Positions 4,282-18,599 of a stretch of 64,000 nt of DNA are shown one piece after another; position 1 is the stretch's first letter; every line of letters starts with the position of its first letter. The position numbers and the translations under genes were made by a program. Origin of the DNA: Bacteriovorax sp. BAL6_X (GTDB lineage Bacteria > Bdellovibrionota > Bacteriovoracia > Bacteriovoracales > Bacteriovoracaceae); the NCBI RefSeq assembly GCF_000443995.1, contig NZ_AUMC01000010.1, positions 496,001 through 560,000 on the forward strand, written 5' to 3'. The notes beneath the pieces were generated by a model. The model saw only the letters and a list, made by a program, of their open reading frames with translations. It was not told the origin of the DNA and made no database searches.

Positions 4282-5059
4282 AGTGGTTAATTGTCTTATT
4301 TCTTCTAAATTCAAACGCTCAAGCGGGATTTAGTGAGATCCCTGCTTCAAATCGTTATCAGTATAAGAAGCCAGTTTCTAAGAAGGTGAAAAAAGAACAG
4401 TTGGGAAGAGTAAAAAGAATCAGCTTGATAAGCATACTAAGAGCTTACTTGAAAAGGATCAGGCCATCCTTGACCTATTAAAAAAGTCTGAGAAGCGAGT
4501 CATCGTCAGAAAGAAGGAAGAGAAAATCACAGCTCTTACTCGTGTACGTGGGATTATTCTAAATTCAGTTCTGGCCATGAATGTTAAGCCATCTAAGTTT
4601 ATCGTGAGAATAAATAGTGAAAGCTCGGATTTAAACGGAGCAGAACTTCGCTGTCTTGGCTTTAGCTTTGAGAAACGAGTACCTAGTCAATGTGACCTAT
4701 TGGTTATGGATGGTGAAGAATATGACGTTGATGTGGATATCTGGGACTTAGACGGTGCCGAAGGAATCATTGCTGATTACTACTACTCAGGAGAAGAGAA
4801 GACCTTTCTGACTTCTTCGTTCGCATCATTTCTAGGAGCTACCTTTGATGTGGCCAAAGGTGGAGTGAGTTCTCCTTTTGGGACATTCAATCAAAATACG
4901 GCCAAGAATAAGATCATGGACGGTCTAAGCAGTATTGCAACTAATGCCAAGAACAAGATTATCGAGTCGGGAGAGAAGAATTTAACGATCTCCTATGTGA
5001 ACTCTGGAAAAGAGGTACTTGTCTTTTTTAATAAGTCTTTAAAGCTAGGTGGAGAATAA
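4278..5059 (+). CDS. VirB10/TraB-like T4SS protein interrupted by a -1 frame change
   Basis: Two frames together make one protein. Frame 1 starts at 4278 (ATGA overlap) with a signal peptide (MKWLIVLFLLNSNAQA) and a Lys-rich linker, then drifts into unrelated sequence and stops at 4481. A second frame (-1) is open from 4382 to 5059. It encodes a coiled segment (SLLEKDQAILDLLKKSEKR) and a VirB10/TraB-like domain: TRVRGIILNSVLAMN, a GAELRCLGF strand, a C..LL strand, DVDIWDLDGAEGI, and a hydrophobic antenna-like SSFASFLGA region. The -1 frame has no ATG, GTG or TTG before 4577. A run of six A at 4389-4394 is the likely slip or error point. It could be programmed frameshifting, a real mutation or a sequence error. 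Confidence 0.66.
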
Positions 5060-5060
5060 A

Positions 5061-5618
5061 ATGAAACGAATATTATTAGGAATTTTAATTTTGAGCGTGA
5101 CCTCATGTTCAACAATGAAGAAAACCCTTATCTATAGTTCCTTGGCCGGTGGAGCAACAGGGGCCACGGCAGGAGCAATGCTAAGCCCTAACAAGGAAAG
5201 TCGTGGTGCAAACGCAGCCGTTTTTGGACTTATTGGAGCAGGACTCGCGGCTCTTGCTGGCTATGCACTTTATAAGGATGATCCTCGAAACTATAAGCTC
5301 GATCAAATGCTTATGGATAAGAAGAAAACGAATATCCCGTATGATCCAAATGCAATTGAGATAGGACTCGGAAATCTCAATATAGACGCCAATCTTAGCA
5401 AGGAAGAAGCTTATAAGGTTCCAGTTAAGGAGCTACCTGAAAAGCTTAAGGGCAAAGTAAACAGACAATTTCTAATCAAATATCAATCCAAAGAGCGTTA
5501 CGTAAAAAAAGGGAACAAAACTTTCTATATTCCAGCATTTGATGTTTACGAGCACGCTTACGGTGAAACACCTGATTCTATTAATAGCAATCCGGAAGGA
5601 GAAAACAATGAGCAATAA
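5061..5618 (+). CDS. TraV/VirB7-like lipoprotein with glycine-zipper segments
   Basis: A 185-residue protein with a clear lipoprotein signal (MKRILLGILILSVTSC; lipobox LSVTSC), so it should be anchored in the outer membrane. Two small-residue hydrophobic segments follow (GGATGATAGAML and FGLIGAGLAALAGYAL), of the glycine-zipper type, then a soluble domain. The ATG at 5061 is preferred over a GTG at 5049 because GGTGGAG lies 7 bases before it. Placed directly after the VirB10-like gene, it fits the TraV/VirB7 role of holding the outer-membrane core complex together. This assignment comes from the lipobox and position only. Confidence 0.66.
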   Translation: MKRILLGILILSVTSCSTMKKTLIYSSLAGGATGATAGAMLSPNKESRGANAAVFGLIGAGLAALAGYALYKDDPRNYKLDQMLMDKKKTNIPYDPNAIEIGLGNLNIDANLSKEEAYKVPVKELPEKLKGKVNRQFLIKYQSKERYVKKGNKTFYIPAFDVYEHAYGETPDSINSNPEGENNEQ

Positions 5619-7128
5619 AAAGCAATCAGGAGACTTTGGGCTTGGAGAGGCCTTAGTACCTGTAATTGATCTAATGTCAGAGATTCTTTTAAAGCTGAGC
5701 CAATTAATGGCCACAGGACTTGTACTTGGAATGGATAAGTATGTCTTTAAAAGAAATAATAAGAATACCATTAAGAAGATTGAAAGAGATGATCTTAAAA
5801 ATGACAGACGCACCTTGCTTGATGAAGCCATCGGTTATTCCGTAACTTCCAAAAGAATTATTATGGGCAGTGAGATTAATAAGTCAGCTCATACGGCAGT
5901 CGTTGGGGCCAGTGGTTCAGGAAAAACCGTTCTTCTTGATGCTCTTATGTTTGAAGATATGAGACAAGGAAAGCCCGTGGTCTTTATTGATCCAAAGGGC
6001 GATAACGGCTCTCTTTTAAACTTTATTAATCTTTGTAAGCTAACAGGACGGGACTTTTATGTCTTTTCTGAATACTGGAATGGCGAGGGAACTAGTGCCT
6101 TAAATCCTGTTAAGGATGGATCAAGTACAAATATAGCAGACCGTATTTTTAAGTCCTTTACTTGGAGTGAAGAGCATTACGCCCAGATTTGTCGTGATGC
6201 CATCGAGGATGCGGTTTCAATCCTTAAAAGCAAAGATGAGTTAGTTAATCTTGAAAGTATCTACAACAAGCTTATCGAAATAAGTGACCCTAAGAATAAA
6301 GAAGAAAGTCTTTATAAGCGAGATGATATTCAAGGGATTTTATCAAGGCTTAAGAAGCTTATGAGATCTGACTTTGGACAGAAGCTTAATAGGGCAGATG
6401 GGCTTAGCTTTTCTGATATCAGAAAGAGTAGTAAATGCGTCTATATCGGATTATCGGTTCTTGGCTTTGCAGAAATTGCCAGGTCTCTTGGGAAAGTGAT
6501 TTTAGGAGACATCTCATATTCAGCTTATAAAACCTATCGAGATATAACTCCCGTTAATGAGGGGCAGCTTAATAAGATGGGGCTTTATATTGATGAGCTT
6601 TCGGCTATTATTACAGATGAGTTTATCGAAATTCTAAATAAGGTAAGAGGGGCAAAGATGGAGCTTACTTTTGCCTTTCAGTCGCCAAGTGATATTGCAA
6701 AATATGACCCTGAGCTTTGTACTCAAGTCTTAGAGAATACTTCTAATTGGTTTCTTTTCAAACAGAGAATAAAAGACGGCGCAGGGTTATTTGCTGAGTC
6801 TATCGGAACGATGGAGTCAAAGAAGCAGACAATGCGAGTACAAGATGGGGAAGAGCAGGCCCAAGGATCACAGAGAACTGTTGAGGAGTTAATTGTTCAT
6901 TCCAATATCTTAAAGAATTTAAATGTGGGGCAATGTGTATTTTTAAGGCATTACCCAACAAAAGTTGATCTTCTTAACGTGAAGTATATCGACCCTAAGA
7001 TCGTCTGGGATAATGTCAAATTTATAAATAAGGAGGTAGTTATCGAAAAAGATAGTCCTAAGGAATCCAAAAAGAACAAACCTTATTCAATAAAAAAACG
7101 TAGGCCTTTGTTAGTAGAGGGTAGGTGA
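5608..7128 (+). CDS. VirD4/TraD/TraG-type coupling ATPase
   Basis: A 506-residue protein that should bring the transfer DNA to the secretion channel. It has a Walker A GASGSGKT (about residue 101), a following VFIDPKGDNGSL strand, a Walker B GLYIDELSAI (about residue 328) and the AFQSPSDI sensor. These are the features of the TraD/VirD4 coupling family. A weakly hydrophobic N-terminal segment (about residues 13-45) is the only candidate membrane anchor, shorter than the usual two-helix anchor. The ATG at 5608 has GGAAGGAG 7 bases upstream; a start at 5539 would lie deep in the lipoprotein gene. It overlaps the lipoprotein gene by 11 bases and touches the next gene. Confidence 0.88.
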   Translation: MSNKKQSGDFGLGEALVPVIDLMSEILLKLSQLMATGLVLGMDKYVFKRNNKNTIKKIERDDLKNDRRTLLDEAIGYSVTSKRIIMGSEINKSAHTAVVGASGSGKTVLLDALMFEDMRQGKPVVFIDPKGDNGSLLNFINLCKLTGRDFYVFSEYWNGEGTSALNPVKDGSSTNIADRIFKSFTWSEEHYAQICRDAIEDAVSILKSKDELVNLESIYNKLIEISDPKNKEESLYKRDDIQGILSRLKKLMRSDFGQKLNRADGLSFSDIRKSSKCVYIGLSVLGFAEIARSLGKVILGDISYSAYKTYRDITPVNEGQLNKMGLYIDELSAIITDEFIEILNKVRGAKMELTFAFQSPSDIAKYDPELCTQVLENTSNWFLFKQRIKDGAGLFAESIGTMESKKQTMRVQDGEEQAQGSQRTVEELIVHSNILKNLNVGQCVFLRHYPTKVDLLNVKYIDPKIVWDNVKFINKEVVIEKDSPKESKKNKPYSIKKRRPLLVEGR

Positions 7129-8770: not shown

Positions 8771-9049
8771 TTGCACAAAATGAAGATAGAAAATGTAACA
8801 GACATTCCTAGGACTACACGGTATAGTAGTCATGTTGGAGATATTGAAAATAATCCAACGGTGCTCTTTGACAATTTAAAATGGATGACGACTAACGAAG
8901 CAGCGACTTACTTAAGAAAGTCTACTAATGCAATTAGGACAGCAGTATGTCGAGGACATATTAAAGCTAGAAAATTCAGAAGAAGACTTTACTTTAAACG
9001 GAGCGAACTTGATCGACTTATTGAAACCTCAACAACCATAGGAGGTTAA
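8771..9049 (+). CDS. Excisionase-like MerR/HTH_17 DNA-binding protein
   Basis: A small protein whose C-terminal 55 residues (WMTTNEAATYLRKSTNAIRTAVCRGHIKARKFRRRLYFKRSELDRLI) form the helix-turn-helix of excisionase/AlpA-type proteins: T..EAA.YL..S...I......G.I...K.....F....L. Ending just 1 base before the integrase, it most likely works as recombination directionality factor or regulator of the integrase. The start is uncertain. A TTG at 8771 has GGAGG only 4 bases upstream, while the ATG at 8780 is 13 bases from it. Confidence 0.75.
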   Translation: MHKMKIENVTDIPRTTRYSSHVGDIENNPTVLFDNLKWMTTNEAATYLRKSTNAIRTAVCRGHIKARKFRRRLYFKRSELDRLIETSTTIGG

Positions 9050-9050
9050 T

Positions 9051-10184
9051 ATGGCAATCAGGTGTTATGAAAAGGACGGGAAAAAACTTTATCAGGTCTA
9101 TGTAAATGCGAGAAGCAAAACAGACCGAAAGTTAAGAGTCCAAAAAACAGTTTCCGACTTAAAGTCGCTATCATTAGCAAGACGAGAAGAGAATAGAATA
9201 AACCAAGAGCTTGGTAAGAAACTTACTGAGCTAGAAGGCTTATGTGATACATGGGAGTCTGTGATTGATAAATGGGAACATGAAGCCAGAAGTGGTTTTC
9301 TTGGAACATACAATCCTGCAACAATTATGGATCATGTGGCCAGTCTAAGAAATTGGACAAAAAGCTGGCTTAAAACACCAGCATCTGAACTCGGTAAAGC
9401 AAATGGCCGTGATCTTGTAAAAAGAATGACCAATGCGGAGAAGTCTATCAGCTTCATTAAGAAAGTTAAAAACACAGTAAACTTAGTTTATAACTTTGGT
9501 ATTGAAGAAGGACTTATTAAGGGAGTACACCAGTCTCCGGTTTATGGAATTAAATTACACCATAAAAAAGAGAAGGTTCCAGATATTCTAACTTTAGAAG
9601 AGATAAAACAATTTCTTTATGAAGCAAGAAGACAAGAGCACCCTTGGTATCCAATTTGGGCAACAGCACTTTTAACAGGTATGCGCAGTGGAGAGCTTTA
9701 CGCTCTCGAATGGAATGATGTTGATTTTGAAAATGAGATTGTTCGAGTTTCAAAGTCTTTTAACAAAAGAACTAATGAGATCAAGAGTACAAAAGCTGGT
9801 TATTGGCGTAATGTACCAATGTCACCAGAACTCAAAGAGCTTTTTATTTCTTTAAAGTCATCGTCTAAAGATAAATTTGTTTTACCAAGATTCAACGATT
9901 GGAGAAGGGGAGATCAATCAAAAATATTAAAAATGTTCTTGATTGGTAACGGCCTTCCCAAAATTAAATTTCATGCTTTAAGAGCTTGTTTTGCAACTCA
10001 GCTCTTAGCAAAAGGAACACCTGCTGCAATCGTGATGAAAATCTGTGGTTGGAGAGATTTGAAAACCATGGAGCTTTATATTCGGGTAGCCGGTGTGGAC
10101 GAGAAAGGTGCGACTGATTGTCTTAGTATTCTGCCTTCTGAGGTAGATGTCGCAGATAATGTAGTTAGTCTTTTTCACAGCTAA
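9051..10184 (+). CDS. int: Tyrosine site-specific integrase
   Basis: A 377-residue phage-type integrase. An N-terminal arm-binding region, a SAM-like core-binding domain (about residues 75-165) and a C-terminal catalytic domain are present. The catalytic residues can be placed: R213 (TGMRSGEL), K248 (STKAGYWR), H308 and R311 (FHALRACFAT), W334 in place of the second His (GWRDL), and nucleophile Y343 (ELYIR). A consensus site (AGGAGG) precedes the ATG. The excisionase-like gene directly upstream and a strong terminator directly downstream indicate the end of the integrative element; the attachment site is expected nearby but was not identified. Confidence 0.93.
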   Translation: MAIRCYEKDGKKLYQVYVNARSKTDRKLRVQKTVSDLKSLSLARREENRINQELGKKLTELEGLCDTWESVIDKWEHEARSGFLGTYNPATIMDHVASLRNWTKSWLKTPASELGKANGRDLVKRMTNAEKSISFIKKVKNTVNLVYNFGIEEGLIKGVHQSPVYGIKLHHKKEKVPDILTLEEIKQFLYEARRQEHPWYPIWATALLTGMRSGELYALEWNDVDFENEIVRVSKSFNKRTNEIKSTKAGYWRNVPMSPELKELFISLKSSSKDKFVLPRFNDWRRGDQSKILKMFLIGNGLPKIKFHALRACFATQLLAKGTPAAIVMKICGWRDLKTMELYIRVAGVDEKGATDCLSILPSEVDVADNVVSLFHS

Positions 10185-10349: not shown

Positions 10350-10934
10350 ATGTCTAAAAGTCTTGATACGAAGTCAATGATTTTGTGCATGATAGCAATT
10401 GATGGTGATACTATCACTGGTGAATTGGGGGGGATTACTCGACTTCAAAAACTATTGTTCTTGTTAGAAAACGAACTATCAAATGGTGAAAGGTTTGAAG
10501 AACTTGAATTTACTGCATATAAAGCAGGGCCATATTCATCAAGAATTTATGATGAGCTTGAATTTTTAGAAAATCTTGGCTTTATTGACTCAGAAATTGT
10601 AGGCGAAACGACAACAGAAGAATCAGTAGAGGTGGATGCTTTAAACTTTGAAGATTTGATGGGGGAAGAATCCTCTGCAAAAGATGACGTTGGGTATGCT
10701 GATGCTTATGTCGAGCGAAGTTTTAAAATTACAAAAAAAGGAATGTCCAAAGTTCAAGAAATTTTAAACTCTGGTGAATACACACCATCTCTTGAAGGAA
10801 TAAGAAAAATCAAGTCTAAGTTTGGTAAGTACTCATTATCTGATTTGTTATATTATGTTTATACGAAATACCCTGAAATGACTGTAGAATCTGAAATTAA
10901 AGATCAGGTCTTATCAAAGCGAAGAAGGGCATAA
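10350..10934 (+). CDS. Panacea/YwgA-like winged-helix protein, first gene of a possible defence or TA cassette
   Basis: A 194-residue acidic protein. Near the N-terminus it has GGITRLQKLLFLLENEL, then FTAYKAGPYSSRIYDELEFLENLGFI and, near the end, FKITKKGMSKV and IKSKFGKYSLSDLLYYVYTKYPEMT. The 'LQKLLF', 'GPY' and 'YSLSDLLYYVYTKYP' pattern resembles YwgA and the Panacea (DUF4065) domain, a known antitoxin/chaperone domain of PanAT toxin-antitoxin pairs. An AGGAGG site precedes the ATG. The next gene starts 2 bases after its stop and encodes a membrane protein, a partner type known for Panacea antitoxins. Homology is judged by pattern only. Confidence 0.6.
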   Translation: MSKSLDTKSMILCMIAIDGDTITGELGGITRLQKLLFLLENELSNGERFEELEFTAYKAGPYSSRIYDELEFLENLGFIDSEIVGETTTEESVEVDALNFEDLMGEESSAKDDVGYADAYVERSFKITKKGMSKVQEILNSGEYTPSLEGIRKIKSKFGKYSLSDLLYYVYTKYPEMTVESEIKDQVLSKRRRA

Positions 10935-10936
10935 GA

Positions 10937-11569
10937 ATGGAGAAAATTGCTCTATTTCATGGAGTTATAGCAACAATTAGTATTGGATATTTTTTTAAGG
11001 TTAAAGGTTTAGATTCTAGTTTCTTAACTGAAAGCTTTGATAATATTGTAGATATAAAAAATCGTATAACTTCTGAAATAACAGAAGAGATAGTAAGGTT
11101 AGCTACTCCTATTCCTGATGTATATGTTACAGGTGGGGAAGTTAATGAAGTAAGTTATTATGAAGGTGTATCAAATCCGCTAAAAGGCGATAGCTTTAAA
11201 AACTGGTTAGATGATTATCTAGAGAAGGAAATATCCTTCATAGACTATTACGCTAAGTTTAAAAAACTCTTTTCAAAATGGAAGAAGTATAAGAACTTGC
11301 TCATGAACTTCTCAATTTTTTTGACTATTATAGAATTAATAAATATGGCAACCTGTTTTTACTTAAGTCAGTTCTGTTTCAAGTTAAATAATGGAGAAGT
11401 GAAACTTCTAGCAGAACCTTTCTTGTGCTCATCAAATACAAAAATAATTATATTTGTATCAGGTGCTTTTACATTAGTTTTGATTTTTATTGGATTATTT
11501 CTGATTATGAGTCTTAATCGTGTTGAGTCTAAAGTTTTAGACTTTAAAGGGACTTATAATGGCTTATAG
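10937..11569 (+). CDS. Unknown two-TM membrane protein of the TGT-like cassette
   Basis: I do not recognise this 210-residue protein. It has a weakly hydrophobic N-terminus, a soluble middle (about residues 30-115, with many acidic and aromatic residues) and two strong membrane segments (about residues 120-145, LLMNFSIFLTIIELINMATCFYL, and 175-200, IIIFVSGAFTLVLIFIGLFLIM). It starts 2 bases after the Panacea/YwgA-like gene and overlaps the nuclease gene by 11 bases, so the four genes are likely one transcription unit. A membrane effector or toxin is plausible in this context, but that is inference. Confidence 0.6.
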   Translation: MEKIALFHGVIATISIGYFFKVKGLDSSFLTESFDNIVDIKNRITSEITEEIVRLATPIPDVYVTGGEVNEVSYYEGVSNPLKGDSFKNWLDDYLEKEISFIDYYAKFKKLFSKWKKYKNLLMNFSIFLTIIELINMATCFYLSQFCFKLNNGEVKLLAEPFLCSSNTKIIIFVSGAFTLVLIFIGLFLIMSLNRVESKVLDFKGTYNGL

Positions 11570-11957
11570 ATGGGAAGTAGATTTATATAAGCCTCTTAAA
11601 CGTTATCTTGGTAATAGAAGCTTTCGAATAATTGAAGAAGAGGTAGACTTTTTTGAAAGAAGAATTGATTTATTTTGCTTCTCAAGAAAGTTAGATAAAT
11701 CTATTGCAGTAGAAGCAAAATTAAAAGATTGGAAAAAAGCATTAAGACAAGCACTTTTGTATCAACTATGTTCAGACTTTGTATATGTTGCAATGCCAGC
11801 TGATGTTTTTAAAGTTATAAACAAGGATACATTCTTTAATCATGGTGTTGGATTCCTTGCACTGTATGAAAGTGGTGCATGTCGAGAGTTAATTCCTGCC
11901 AGGCCTTCATCGGTGTTGACAGAAGTTTATCGTACCGAGTTAATAAATTTCCTTTAG
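11559..11957 (+). CDS. PD-(D/E)XK-type nuclease-like protein
   Basis: A 132-residue protein with a compact restriction-nuclease-like pattern: an early acidic E6 (WEVDLYKPLKRYL), D37 in ERRIDLFCF, E52-x-K54 in IAVEAKLKDWKKALRQALLYQLC, and Q64 on the following helix. This D...ExK...Q spacing is the core of the PD-(D/E)XK fold found in restriction enzymes and many defence proteins. At 132 residues it is a minimal domain without target-recognition region. It overlaps the preceding membrane-protein gene by 11 bases, and its stop lies inside the site used by the next gene. Target and activity are unknown. Confidence 0.65.
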   Translation: MAYRWEVDLYKPLKRYLGNRSFRIIEEEVDFFERRIDLFCFSRKLDKSIAVEAKLKDWKKALRQALLYQLCSDFVYVAMPADVFKVINKDTFFNHGVGFLALYESGACRELIPARPSSVLTEVYRTELINFL

Positions 11958-11965
11958 GAGTTTTT

Positions 11966-13291
11966 TTGAAGTTATTACTTAGATATGGAAGTCATTCAGA
12001 AAAAGATTATTTTGAAAAAATGTTAAAGTTTTTTGATGGTGTGACATTCGCATCAAATTTATTGGAGTCAACTCCTTCTGCGACAGTTAGTCTAATTGCT
12101 AAATTTTCAAGTGATAAATACAATGTTCCATATATTATTGACCCGATGACTTATTCTTTTGGTGAGTTTTTTGACATAAAAAATGGCGAAATAAGTGATG
12201 ATTTGAGCTGGCTAATGTCTAAAACAAAAAAATACGGACTTGACTTTAAAAGGTCGTATAGGGCTCTCGGAGAAAACTTAGGCGGAGCTTTTTTAGAGTC
12301 AATTCAAAATAAAAGATCTATTTCTCTGGGGGATTTACAAAATGAAGCAACTCGAAAAGATATATGTAAATCTACAGTTAATTATCAGAAAAATAGGATA
12401 ATAAATATTTTAAAAAAAGATGAAGAGTATGCTCAGTATGCAGAAGAAATGTCATCACCGATACATATTTTAGCACCTTATTTCTTCATACAACCTGGGC
12501 GAGAGAATGAGTGGATTGATGTCATTAGGGGAATTGCAGAGGAATCTTCAAAGTTTGAAGAAGATAACTTATATATTAAATTATGTTTTGATAAGTCTTT
12601 GTTAGATGACAATGAAAAAATTTCTCTATTAGGGGAACTACGCTCTTTAAGTAAAGTTAAAGGTTTTTGGATTTGGGCAAGTGACTTTAATGAAACCGAG
12701 GCAAGCGAACGACAATTAAGTGGAATGAGAAGTTTAGTTGAAGCCTTAAGCAGTGAAGGAAAAGAAGTCTTCAATAGACATGGGGGCTACTTCTCGATGA
12801 TGCTAACAAAGCTTGGGCTATCTGGGGTGTCCACGGCCGTGGGCTATGGAGAACAGAAAGATGCTATGCCTGTTGTGGGAGTCGCAACGCCTGTTGTTAA
12901 TTATTATTTCCCTCTACTTCATAAAAAAATGGGAATTCCAGATGTCCAAAGATCATTTTATGATTTAGGGATCAATAGCTCTACTGATTTTTTTAGACTA
13001 ATTTGTGGTTGTGCTATTTGTAGAGGTGTTTTGAGTACTGGATTAGTCGAGTTTAGACAGTTTGGTGAAAAACATCTTGCTACAGAAAAGTCAAGAAGGC
13101 GAACACAGACCCCAGCTGCTGCAAAAAGGGCCCGCTTCCATTATCTGTTATCTAAAGCAAATGAAAAGAAGATTGTTTCAGAAAGTCAATTGAATGACTT
13201 GATTGATAGACTTAAAGAATCTCAAAGAGTTTCGAATTTTGATTATTATCAATTGGATTATATTGATAGATGGTTAAAAGTAATTGATTAG
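11966..13291 (+). CDS. Divergent tRNA-guanine transglycosylase (TGT/DpdA)-like protein
   Basis: About 441 residues, starting at a TTG (11966) with AGGAG 5 bases upstream; an ATG at 11879 would lie far inside the nuclease gene. The C-terminus has C347-x-C349-xx-C352 (CGCAICRG), a Lys/Arg-rich stretch and H392 in ARFHYLLSKANEKKI, followed by a terminal helix. This resembles the TGT zinc site (CxCxxC...H plus helix). The middle has alternating strands and helices compatible with a TIM barrel (YIIDPMTYSFGEFF, GFWIWASDFNE, GVSTAVGYGE). The canonical TGT nucleophile motif was not found. TGT relatives such as DpdA put 7-deazaguanines into DNA; a base-modifying or base-sensing role here is inference. 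Confidence 0.55.
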   Translation: MKLLLRYGSHSEKDYFEKMLKFFDGVTFASNLLESTPSATVSLIAKFSSDKYNVPYIIDPMTYSFGEFFDIKNGEISDDLSWLMSKTKKYGLDFKRSYRALGENLGGAFLESIQNKRSISLGDLQNEATRKDICKSTVNYQKNRIINILKKDEEYAQYAEEMSSPIHILAPYFFIQPGRENEWIDVIRGIAEESSKFEEDNLYIKLCFDKSLLDDNEKISLLGELRSLSKVKGFWIWASDFNETEASERQLSGMRSLVEALSSEGKEVFNRHGGYFSMMLTKLGLSGVSTAVGYGEQKDAMPVVGVATPVVNYYFPLLHKKMGIPDVQRSFYDLGINSSTDFFRLICGCAICRGVLSTGLVEFRQFGEKHLATEKSRRRTQTPAAAKRARFHYLLSKANEKKIVSESQLNDLIDRLKESQRVSNFDYYQLDYIDRWLKVID

Positions 13292-13400: not shown

Positions 13401-14498
13401 ATGTCGAATGTGAGGGACGTATTCATATATATTGATAACTCTGTGTTAAAAAAACATAATTATTCTTTCAAGTCTAACTCTTTTAAATCTTTAAAAAATC
13501 ATTTAAATTCAGGAACGATTCAGTCAATAACGAATTCAATACATCAGCTCGAAATAAAAAAGCATATAGGTGAGCAGATCTCAAAAGAGCTGAAGTCGGT
13601 AAAAAAGATGAAGTCTTACCCCGTTCTCTCATCGATTGGTGTGGTAGAAGTAAGTTCTGGATTTATTGATTGTTCACATCCTGATTTAGTAGAAATGAAG
13701 TTAAAAGAATTTAACGACTTTTTTGATAGTAAGACTTTAAAATACGGTAGTCTTGATGGTGATGAAGTTACAGAATTATTCATCGATAGAAAAGCCCCGT
13801 TTAGTAGTCAGAAAGCAGACGAATTTAAAGATGTTTTTCAGTTGAAATCGATTGAGAACTTTATAAGTGAAGCAATATCTACTCAGTTAACAATTTTTCC
13901 AGAATTGAAGAATGAAGTTGAGCAGCCAATAGTTGCTATAATTACTAAAGACAATGGAATGAGAGACTATGTCGAACGATCAAACTTGATTAGTCATGTT
14001 TTCGAGGATATCCCCAATTTTCTAGACTACTACATTAAGACTTTGTTTGGTGTTGATCACTTCGCAAAATATGAATATTATGCACGAAAGCTATCTGAAA
14101 AAAACGATCATTGGTTAGATGAAAACTTTATATTTGATGAATATGTGTTTTTGGATGATTTTGAAGCTGAAGTAATTTGCACTTCATTAATTGACTGCGA
14201 TATAGAGGAGATAAATTTACAAGGTTTTGATGAAGAATATGGAAAGTTTATTGAATATTCAATAGAAGTGTCAGGTAGTATTGAGGTTGATGTTAATAAG
14301 CCTGAGTTTAGAATTTGGGACCCTGAGGCTAAAGAGTATCAATATTCTGGCTCAGAAGACTTTTCTGAAGAAGTAAGTTTTGAGTGTACCTATACGTTAA
14401 CTCTGTATACTTCTGATGGTGGAATCTCTTTTGAAAATTATGACGTTGAGATTGATGAAATCTTTTGTGATGATATTGTAATTTCTTGGGATGATTAA
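13401..14498 (+). CDS. DUF4935-type PIN-domain protein with acidic C-terminal extension
   Basis: A 365-residue protein. The first 215 residues fit a PIN nuclease: D12 in VFIYIDNSVL, then FKSNSFKSLKNHLNSG, E52 in HQLEIKKH, APFSSQKADEFKDVFQLKSI with the conserved FKD acid, and AIITKDNGMRDY with the last acid. The order and 'K..EFKD' match DUF4935. The remaining 150 residues are very acidic and beta-rich and were not recognised. Its own ATG lies 109 bases behind the TGT-like gene, so it may be a separate unit. PIN proteins cut RNA and occur as toxins or abortive-infection effectors; no antitoxin gene follows it. Confidence 0.62.
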   Translation: MSNVRDVFIYIDNSVLKKHNYSFKSNSFKSLKNHLNSGTIQSITNSIHQLEIKKHIGEQISKELKSVKKMKSYPVLSSIGVVEVSSGFIDCSHPDLVEMKLKEFNDFFDSKTLKYGSLDGDEVTELFIDRKAPFSSQKADEFKDVFQLKSIENFISEAISTQLTIFPELKNEVEQPIVAIITKDNGMRDYVERSNLISHVFEDIPNFLDYYIKTLFGVDHFAKYEYYARKLSEKNDHWLDENFIFDEYVFLDDFEAEVICTSLIDCDIEEINLQGFDEEYGKFIEYSIEVSGSIEVDVNKPEFRIWDPEAKEYQYSGSEDFSEEVSFECTYTLTLYTSDGGISFENYDVEIDEIFCDDIVISWDD

Positions 14499-15921: not shown

Positions 15922-16449
15922 ATGAGAAAAGTTGAATCCCCTTTTCGTCAAGTTGAAAATACAGATCTTACAAAAGTGAAAACTCTGATTGTAGGGCTAA
16001 ATCCTGGAAAAGATGAGGAAAGGATGGACCTTGAAACATCTGGAAGGAATCGCTTTGTCGGGGTTGCAGGTAAGAACTTGCGAGAAAAAGACTATTACGA
16101 AGGTATGTGGAATAAATTTGGTGTTGGAGAAGAAGTGTTTGTATGGAACTTATTTGATACATATTCTTCGACAGAGAAAGAGTTGAAAGAATTTTCTAAG
16201 AGAGATCTAGAGAATGCATTCTTTAGCGATTACGGATTAGGTACAATCATGAAGAGGTTAGTAAATCTAGAAAATATTGTTGTATTGGGTTTACATGCGC
16301 AAAATTTCTTTGTTGGACAAAGAAGGGTTGATAAGTTTTCGAATTGGAAGAGTATTTACTTTTTAAGACACCCTTCATTTATTCATACTGATAAAGAAGC
16401 AAAACAAAAAATTGAAAAAGCTTTAGAAAATCCGTACTTGTCTAGATGA
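15922..16449 (+). CDS. Uracil-DNA-glycosylase-superfamily-like protein
   Basis: A 175-residue protein with TLIVGLNPGKDEERMD near residue 22, a FVWNLFDTYSS segment, NIVVLGLHAQNFF and a terminal YFLRHPSFIH. The first 'LIVGLNPG' loop and the terminal 'HPS' loop are arranged as in the UDG superfamily, where they hold the catalytic and base-flipping loops. Catalytic residues cannot be assigned with certainty, so it may be an inactive or nucleotide-binding relative. An AGGAGAAA site precedes the ATG. Its stop overlaps a possible 35-codon frame. Confidence 0.5.
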   Translation: MRKVESPFRQVENTDLTKVKTLIVGLNPGKDEERMDLETSGRNRFVGVAGKNLREKDYYEGMWNKFGVGEEVFVWNLFDTYSSTEKELKEFSKRDLENAFFSDYGLGTIMKRLVNLENIVVLGLHAQNFFVGQRRVDKFSNWKSIYFLRHPSFIHTDKEAKQKIEKALENPYLSR

Positions 16450-17171: not shown

Positions 17172-17271
17172 GATGATGATATTGAGATTCATCCAAAAAA
17201 GTGTTTAGCTCGGAATCTCTTCTTGAGTTGCTCGATTAAGTTATTTGTTCTTATTATCCGATAAGTTATGT

Positions 17272-17748
17272 ATGAAATACATAATCCTCACACTTCTAAT
17301 CTCATTTTTCCAACTAACAACACTTGCAACATCAGAATGCACCCACGATGCCAATAACTTCCGCTGTGTAAAGTACGTAAAGAACTACGACGCGGACACG
17401 GTGACGTTTGATATTCCAAATGTGCATCCGCTGATTGGAAGTCGAATTAATGTGCGAGTGAGTGGAGTGGATACGCCGGAGATTCGAACGAAGAATGCGT
17501 GCGAGAAGAGTAAGGGGCGAGATGCGAAGAAGATTGTGACGAATCTTTTAAAGCACGCCAAACGCATTGATCTAGAGAATGTACAAAGAGGTAAGTATTT
17601 TCGCGTGGTGGCCGATGTGAAAATTGATGGCCAGTCGTTGTCATACTATCTTCTAAAAAATGGCCTTGCCTATGCTTATGATGGTGGGACTAAGAAGAAG
17701 GTTGATTGGTGTAAGACAAATCGTGAGATAGCTTCAGAATATAAATAA
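17272..17748 (+). CDS. Secreted thermonuclease (SNase family)
   Basis: A 158-residue protein with a signal peptide (MKYIILTLLISFFQLTTLATS). The SNase domain shows NYDADTVTF, INVRVSGVDTPEIR (Arg, Asp and Glu of the catalytic site), CEKSKGRDAKKIV, and RGKYFRVVADVKIDG with the second catalytic Arg, then LSYYLLKNGLAYAYDGG. It should degrade DNA and RNA in the periplasm or outside. The ATG at 17272 is chosen because it starts the signal peptide; an upstream TTG at 17245 adds 9 residues without need. Confidence 0.85.
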   Translation: MKYIILTLLISFFQLTTLATSECTHDANNFRCVKYVKNYDADTVTFDIPNVHPLIGSRINVRVSGVDTPEIRTKNACEKSKGRDAKKIVTNLLKHAKRIDLENVQRGKYFRVVADVKIDGQSLSYYLLKNGLAYAYDGGTKKKVDWCKTNREIASEYK

Positions 17749-17783: not shown

Positions 17784-18599
17784 ATGAAAGAATATCTAAG
17801 AAAGTGGGATCTTAAGTTAGTTGATCTTGTTGCACAGACGACAACGGCAAATCTCTATCTTGTAAACTCACAATTTGGTGATGCTATTTTAAAAGTGTTC
17901 ACAGATATTGGCCGAGTGGATGAAGGAGGAGGGACTCTTTTTCTTAAGAATATGCAGGGCAGAAGTTGTGCCAAATTATATGCTTCAGATGAAGGGGCCC
18001 AGCTTCTTGAGTTTCTTCCAGGAAGAAATCTCAACGAGTTTTCAAAGTCTGCTCAAGAAGACAAGGCGACAGATGTCTTTGTCCAGGTTATTAAAAAGAT
18101 TCAAAGTTCTTCTTATAATGGCCTGCCTTCTTATGAATTTCTTTTTAAAGAATTTGATAAAGTTACATTTCCGACTCATCTTAATGAGCAATTAGCTTTT
18201 GGCAAAAGCCTTTCGAAAAAACTTCTTGAGACACAAACACAAACAGTGCTTTTACATGGTGATCTTCATCACGAAAATATCATGCAAAATGAAGCAGGTG
18301 AGTATGTCTGCTTAGATCCAAAAGGCATGGCAGGCGATCCTGCATATGAAATTGGAGCAATCCTTAAGAATCCTTGGGGCCTGCCTAAGATCTCACAAAA
18401 TTTAGAATTATTTAATCAACGAGTTGAGTGTTTTGTTACTGAATTAGGGCTTGATCGGGAGCGCGTCGTAGGGTTTGCTTATGTGCATTTTTGTTTGAGC
18501 CTTCTGTGGGCCGTAGAAGACGGCTACGCCTATCAGCACCAAGAGTCTTTGATCAATATGATATTTGAACGTGTTGCGGCCCGAAAAGTATCCAGGTGA
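17784..18599 (+). CDS. Aminoglycoside phosphotransferase APH(6)-like kinase
   Basis: A 271-residue protein-kinase-like phosphotransferase. The catalytic loop HGDLHHENIM starts at H158 with D160, and the metal-binding segment YVCLDPKGMAGDPAYEIGAILKNP follows. The 'DPKG..GDPAYEIGA' pattern is that of the APH(6) streptomycin kinase group, and LLEFLPGRNLNEF gives the hinge. The real substrate could be an aminoglycoside or another small molecule. The last codons lie in a short dispersed repeat (18580-18596), so the C-terminus may have been altered by that repeat. Confidence 0.78.
   Translation: MKEYLRKWDLKLVDLVAQTTTANLYLVNSQFGDAILKVFTDIGRVDEGGGTLFLKNMQGRSCAKLYASDEGAQLLEFLPGRNLNEFSKSAQEDKATDVFVQVIKKIQSSSYNGLPSYEFLFKEFDKVTFPTHLNEQLAFGKSLSKKLLETQTQTVLLHGDLHHENIMQNEAGEYVCLDPKGMAGDPAYEIGAILKNPWGLPKISQNLELFNQRVECFVTELGLDRERVVGFAYVHFCLSLLWAVEDGYAYQHQESLINMIFERVAARKVSR
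18580..18596 (+). repeat. Dispersed short repeat, copy 1
   Basis: CCCGAAAAGTATCCAGG is identical to 21207-21223 and is related to the longer copies at 20522 and 40150. This copy forms the last codons of the APH-like gene, and its flanking bases differ after CCAGG. Confidence 0.55.

Follow-up and report, generated by a model that had tools for sequence, protein, structure and literature searches.

A highly divergent TGT-fold protein in a conserved four-gene operon, probably a new defence-type module

The window analyzed here, a stretch of 64,000 nucleotides from Bacteriovorax sp. BAL6_X, contains a four-gene operon in which a SocA/Panacea-like gene is followed by genes for a protein with three transmembrane segments (3-TM protein), a small PD-(D/E)XK nuclease-fold protein and a protein resembling tRNA-guanine transglycosylase (TGT), usually with overlapping ends (Table 1). 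The start of the TGT-like gene was assigned to the TTG codon because the alternative in-frame ATG at 11879 would create a 79-nt overlap with the preceding gene and because the N-termini of relatives (IIRYGSHAEK-like) match the TTG start. A scan for promoters and terminators around these genes returned signals at chance level.

Table 1. Features of the operon and its surroundings, and restriction genes found beside the operon in related loci
Feature	Position in window	Strand	Description and evidence
Excisionase-like HTH gene	8771..9049	+	PF12728, TIGR01764; context
Tyrosine integrase gene	9051..10184	+	PF00589 E 3.3e-21; phrog_1 E 2.7e-47; immediately upstream of operon, mobile island context
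SocA/Panacea antitoxin-like gene	10350..10934	+	194 aa, first gene of operon; PF13274 E 2.5e-4
3-TM protein gene	10937..11569	+	210 aa, TM near 4, 121, 166; hydropathy, HMM relatives between Panacea-like and nuclease genes in 25 loci
Small PD-(D/E)XK nuclease-fold gene	11559..11957	+	132 aa; AlphaFold model, PDB matches, alignment
Shine-Dalgarno AGGAG	11956..11960	+	5 nt upstream of TTG start at 11966; sequence
TGT-like gene	11966..13291	+	441 aa, last gene of operon; AlphaFold, PDB realignment, 33 related loci
D59 codon	12140..12142	+	End of barrel strand 3, equivalent of zTGT Asp102, 34/34; strand mapping inferred
T290 codon	12833..12835	+	End of barrel strand 8, TGT nucleophile Asp280 position; inferred from strand order and spacing
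E296 codon	12851..12853	+	32/34 conserved; loop after strand 8, low-confidence region of model
Zinc-site codons C347 (13004), C349 (13010), C352 (13019), H392 (13139)	13004..13141	+	Sequence, 34-sequence alignment
Restriction genes beside operon			Type I methylase/specificity L018; type III L020; type IIG L021, L008; type IV L062; PADLOC

Further upstream, genes for a TrbI-like protein and a TrwB/TraG-type coupling protein (4577-7128) precede an SSB gene and the excisionase-like and integrase genes, a gene content that makes the region resemble an integrative conjugative element. The operon is followed immediately by a gene for a PIN_12 domain protein (13401-14498, E 1.2e-11), which was not seen in the other loci and is possibly a separate RNase-type module. 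Further downstream lie genes for a uracil-DNA-glycosylase superfamily protein (15922-16449, E 3.6e-8; 2.6 kb downstream of the operon), a Staphylococcal-nuclease-like protein (17245-17748) and an aminoglycoside/hydroxyurea-resistance-type kinase (17784-18599; APH_6_hur, E 2.1e-29).

The TGT-like protein had no match in Pfam, NCBIfam, PADLOC or PHROGs, and weak Pfam matches to Flavodoxin_1, DUF7716 and PI4KB were dismissed as chance. PF01702 matched none of the 18 members searched, and in the whole genome it found two other genes only, which are ordinary TGT genes located elsewhere. Similarly, phmmer and profile searches of PDB sequences provided no link to TGT, hhalign against canonical TGTs aligned only the CxCxxC region with 1% probability, and its repetition with DpdA added gave no sequence-level link either, the global mode being useless. 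A local hhalign pairing of 'GVSTAVGYGE' with 'GGLSVGE' of TGT (strand 6) was rejected, since it would need ten strands and the model has eight alternating ones. While sequence methods thus found no family, the structural comparison that had been proposed in an earlier sequence-only reading of this DNA led to TGT. The AlphaFold2 model of the protein, built from an alignment of 18 sequences (mean pLDDT 87.3, pTM 0.89), comprises eight beta/alpha units that form the TIM barrel suspected in that reading. Upon structural realignment over the 1000 top-ranked Foldseek chains from the PDB, the best 50 entries were all TGTs (Z 18.8-21.1, rmsd 3.3-3.9 over about 290-300 residues), with archaeosine TGT 1iq8 at the top (Z 21.1, rmsd 3.4 A, 295 residues), Zymomonas TGT at Z about 19-19.6 and mouse QTRT1 at Z 19.3. 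The Foldseek ranking alone had listed xylanase and dehydroquinase barrels alongside TGT, but realignment of the same candidates placed TGT clearly on top and these barrels were discarded. The description of the protein as a highly divergent TGT relative was therefore borne out by the model: the divergence from TGT sequences is extreme, the modeled fold assignment is firm, and the protein represents a new family with the TGT fold.

Four residues, C347, C349, C352 and H392, the last followed by YLLSKANE, had been singled out as resembling the TGT zinc site, and they are exactly where they were reported to be. In an alignment of 34 sequences the motif CxCxxC...H retains its three cysteines in 33 and its histidine in all, which is consistent with these residues being the predicted zinc ligands of a TGT-type site. 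In the Arthrobacter pSI-1 copy (L006 5362-6591) the three cysteines are lost and the histidine is kept. Active-site positions were mapped by strand order and spacing in the model. The barrel strands of the model span residues 2-7, 25-29, 56-59, 167-169, 202-209, 233-239, 267-270 and 287-291, strand 3 is followed by extra lid strands (68-94), and a hairpin at 313-322 leads up to the zinc site. The aspartate in YIIDPMTYS, for which the sequence-only reading had suggested an overlay with a catalytic residue of TGT, is D59, and its invariance at the end of strand 3 agrees with that suggestion. Moreover, TGT D102-x3-Y106 and D59-x3-Y63 share the same spacing, and the lid strands trail D59 at the same distance at which the strands formed by region 114-138 of TGT (PMC6165067) trail Asp102. 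The model thus supports D59 as the counterpart of Asp102, the general acid/base of TGT.

The ordinary TGT of the same genome has Q185, G212, M242 and D262 at spacings of 27, 30 and 20 residues, their roles being presumably those of the corresponding residues in Zymomonas TGT, and the strand ends D209, S239, N270 and residue 290 of the TGT-like protein are spaced by 30, 31 and 20. Since strand order and spacings correspond, the nucleophile Asp280 of TGT maps to residue 290, which is His in 28 sequences, Tyr in 3 (the three haloarchaeal copies), Thr in the window copy, and Asn and Cys in one sequence each. No Asp or Glu occurs at positions 287-291 in any of the 34 sequences, so that by this mapping the nucleophile Asp, whose region had not been seen in the sequence-only reading, is indeed absent. 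The guanine-recognition residues of TGT are changed as well, and W237 and Y172 (each 32/34) and Y314 (nearly invariant) are conserved. Judged by strand order, one catalytic aspartate of the two appears to be kept, together with the fold and the zinc site, and the other, the nucleophile, to be lost along with the guanine-recognition residues. With a residue other than Asp predicted at the nucleophile position, classical base exchange is unlikely. Almost all relatives carry His-Gly where strand 8 ends; the window copy reads T290-A291 (12833-12838) there, and given this departure it may work less well or differently.

The protein encoded directly upstream was modeled with high confidence (pLDDT 95.9) and has, in the model, the alpha-beta-beta-beta-alpha-beta core with D...ExK of a PD-(D/E)XK nuclease fold. 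Its PDB matches were 3dnx (Z 13.8), PaqCI (Z 10.7), XisH (about 10.7) and NucS/EndoMS (about 10), and its motif E28-D37-E52xK54-Q64 is invariant in 20 sequences. A nuclease-only match on a Priestia plasmid was rejected as a different, lone nuclease outside the four-gene system, and it follows that this nuclease fold family is wider than the system. We propose that the 3-TM protein is a membrane effector. The Panacea-like protein of the window scores 22.4 bits against PF13274, which is below the 25.7-bit cut-off, and 8 of 18 members reach E 0.01 or better. Its relatives are annotated SocA/DUF4065, the Haloarcula members SocA, and one relative, WP_049938427.1 (pNG400), which belongs to one of the loci found here, was named among Panacea proteins in a study that validated nine Panacea-toxin pairs, with membrane toxins neutralized in 3 of the 9 (PMC8832971). 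PADLOC yielded no convincing match for the nuclease-fold protein, none for the 3-TM protein and only partial domain matches for the SocA-like protein.

Related loci were collected by searching plasmids, IMG/VR, GTDB genomes and relatives, and their gene content was determined with HMMs made from the window genes. The final set contains 33 further loci (34 with the window), a few of them near-identical. Carriers include Haloarcula plasmids, an Arthrobacter plasmid, chromosomes of Arthrobacter and other Micrococcales, Bacillaceae, Planctomycetota, Acidobacteriota, a gammaproteobacterial MAG, Sumerlaeota, Chloroflexota and prophages. In IMG/VR a single-sequence scan found 0 matches and profile scans found 3 contigs, and phage records contained no match to the TGT-like protein. 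The distribution is patchy, with 1 of 129 genomes in the organism's own class (the window copy being the only one) and 10 of 347, 2 of 397 and 4 of 345 genomes elsewhere. Every locus whose contig extends far enough (33 of 33) has the nuclease-fold gene along with the TGT-like gene, in one prophage with a SIR2 gene in between and on the opposite strand. A Panacea gene was found in 31 of 34 loci, the exceptions being two contig edges (L014, L055) and L012. When the protein was previously placed outside any tRNA or dpd context, this conserved Panacea / 3-TM (or SIR2) / PD-(D/E)XK / TGT-like operon was overlooked; the part of that statement concerning dpd genes holds among the genes read. L012 (4900-6568) is probably a broken copy, since a transposase-like gene sits within its TM gene and breaks up the operon, and no Panacea gene was seen. 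In a prophage (L036 5962-9734, on the contig of L007) the TGT-like and SIR2 genes lie on the strand opposite to the nuclease and Panacea genes, which means that the two halves can be separate transcription units.

The proposed effector gene is the variable one, a SIR2-like gene taking the place of the TM gene in one clade. A TM gene occurs in 25 loci, a SIR2 gene of one type in 6, and both together in none (Fisher p 2.4e-4 for mutual exclusion in 33 loci, kinship ignored). A SIR2-like gene lies behind the TGT-like gene in Bacillaceae, in one prophage and in one Planctomycete, and there the TM gene is either lacking or outside the visible part of the locus; these SIR2 genes match the PADLOC models Aga_SIR2 / ThsA / PDC-S25. 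In a maximum-likelihood tree the SIR2 copies are nested among the TM copies (clade support 100/99), which suggests that the killer-type gene was swapped and the core left unchanged. Three haloarchaeal loci have neither the TM gene nor the common SIR2 type, and in one of them a different SIR2 gene, matched by PDC-S25 and ThsA in PADLOC, is located downstream.

Plasmids and prophages are among the carriers, and several loci adjoin integrases, with the window copy directly following a tyrosine integrase gene. Restriction-modification genes flank the operon in six loci (Table 1), including L004, where a similar IIG-type gene was recognized by sequence; most flanking genes across the loci are ordinary metabolic genes. 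The core proteins fit no defence system listed in PADLOC 2.0.0, and no description of the four-gene system was found in the literature, although a recent one could be missed, since few subscription journals were covered and this PADLOC is the 2023 version.

In summary, the gene set is probably a new defence-type module of known domain kinds. The observed basis for this is the protein fold, the zinc motif, the operon and its conservation, the exchange of effector-type genes, and the neighboring defence genes and mobile elements. We give roughly even chances to a more specific reading, in which the TGT-like protein is a component of a mobile four-gene module, probably anti-phage, with the TGT-like/nuclease pair recognizing its target and the Panacea protein gating a killer. 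The Panacea protein would act as an antitoxin that keeps the killer silent, the 3-TM membrane protein here and a SIR2-like enzyme in other loci. The constant pair of TGT-fold and PD-(D/E)XK proteins, whose genes overlap or are directly adjacent, would form a physical complex and serve as the recognition unit. As a trigger, a flipped-out purine-like base of foreign nucleic acid might enter the pocket of the TGT barrel, in which D59 is retained; this ligand would perhaps be a modified base of the 7-deazaguanine type, and it might be bound only or its glycosidic bond hydrolyzed. The nuclease could then cut the bound nucleic acid, the event could release the killer, or both. Several observations speak against the four-gene defence reading, namely the sub-threshold Panacea score, the mostly metabolic flanks, the Haloarcula loci without a TM gene, T290/A291 in the window copy and the position of E296 in a low-confidence loop. 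Only tentatively do we go further and suggest, as a possibility on the weaker side, that the barrel without nucleophile is an immune sensor of 7-deazaguanine-type or other modified phage bases, coupled to the PD-(D/E)XK nuclease and to a Panacea-gated exchangeable killer (membrane protein or SIR2 NADase).

The comparison with known systems shows partial similarities in each case. The protein shares with TGTs (PF01702; bacterial TGT, archaeosine TGT, QTRT1/QTRT2) the (beta/alpha)8 barrel, the lid strands after strand 3, the CxCxxC...H zinc domain and the strand-3 Asp, but it differs from them in lacking a sequence match, the nucleophile Asp and the guanine-recognition residues and in a helical insertion, about 60 residues long, ahead of strand 4. 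Dpd islands with DpdA, BRC systems with TGT and GrwAB restriction of 7-deazaguanine phage DNA likewise combine nucleases with a TGT fold or a deazaguanine theme in phage conflict (PMC12839542, PMC12137116); in contrast, the operons read here contain no preQ0 synthesis genes, helicase, DpdB/DpdC, HerA or PglZ. PanAT pairs (Panacea/DUF4065) resemble the operon in its Panacea-type first gene and in membrane proteins as a known partner class, whereas the operon has four genes; the PanAT study left out neighborhoods suggesting operons of more than three genes, and names neither a transglycosylase nor a SIR2 protein as partner in its main text (PMC8832971). The nuclease-fold protein has the core fold and E-D-ExK-Q motif of PD-(D/E)XK nucleases (SPO1766 3dnx, XisH, PaqCI, NucS/EndoMS), but here it is a stand-alone protein of 132 aa paired with the TGT-like gene. 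Brig1 is similar in concept only, providing immunity by removal of a modified phage base, and unlike the operon it is a lone DNA glycosylase gene for which no TGT-like protein was reported (PMC11078745).

The gene set resembles an undescribed prokaryotic conflict module, found in archaea and several bacterial phyla, whose core includes an unlisted TGT-fold family. If the barrel reads modified bases, it would represent a new type of sensor for base modifications, directed against phages whose DNA is disguised by 7-deazaguanines, and if the protein is enzymatic with its changed active site, it would represent new chemistry on a well-studied fold. A Panacea-gated killer working alongside a pair of proteins that recognizes nucleic acid would connect toxin-antitoxin pairs with modification-dependent immunity.

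Other explanations were weighed against the mobile four-gene defence reading. The barrel might be a catalytically dead scaffold that does no more than bind a base or tRNA and pass a signal on to the nuclease or killer, similar to QTRT2, the non-catalytic subunit of eukaryotic TGT, in which the nucleophile Asp is replaced by Glu (PMC6165067). The replacement of the nucleophile by His, Tyr, Thr, Asn or Cys in all 34 sequences and the changed base-recognition residues fit this explanation, but the invariant D59 and the nearly invariant E296, Y172, W237, Y314 and H392 are more than a scaffold needs, and we regard it as unlikely. A plain toxin-antitoxin system, in which the TGT-like protein, the nuclease or both would be toxins acting on host tRNA or DNA, with Panacea as antitoxin and the TM protein as accessory, appears still somewhat less probable: the Panacea gene leads the operon and WP_049938427.1 is a named Panacea protein (PMC8832971), yet the alternation of TM and SIR2 genes beside a constant TGT-like and nuclease pair is better explained by a sensor core with a swappable killer. 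Hardly any weight is left for a metabolic or tRNA-modifying base-exchange enzyme with a new substrate that lies near the integrase by chance, for although the TGT fold and zinc site would suit such an enzyme, the invariant co-occurrence of Panacea and nuclease genes over many phyla and the patchy presence on mobile DNA would not.

A role similar to that of Dpd restriction-modification, in which the TGT-like enzyme would label host DNA as self by inserting a 7-deazaguanine base and the nuclease would cut unmarked DNA, is suggested by the combination of a TGT fold with a nuclease and by the fact that DpdA is a TGT homologue (PMC12839542). However, the nucleophile Asp is lost and neither que nor dpdB/dpdC-type genes were found among the genes read in the loci. 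In line with the earlier statement that the window contains no queC, QueC matches in this genome were located only outside it (at C10:820558, with weak ones on other contigs). Moreover, four Micrococcales carriers possess an ordinary TGT and no QueC match, and judged by gene content they would make no preQ0 by the known route; host-made preQ0 can therefore not be a general requirement. On these grounds the Dpd-type role was set aside as very improbable. In one of the Arthrobacter carriers (L033), whose genome has no QueC match, the ordinary TGT is an elongated variant, which suggests that this carrier salvages a finished base.
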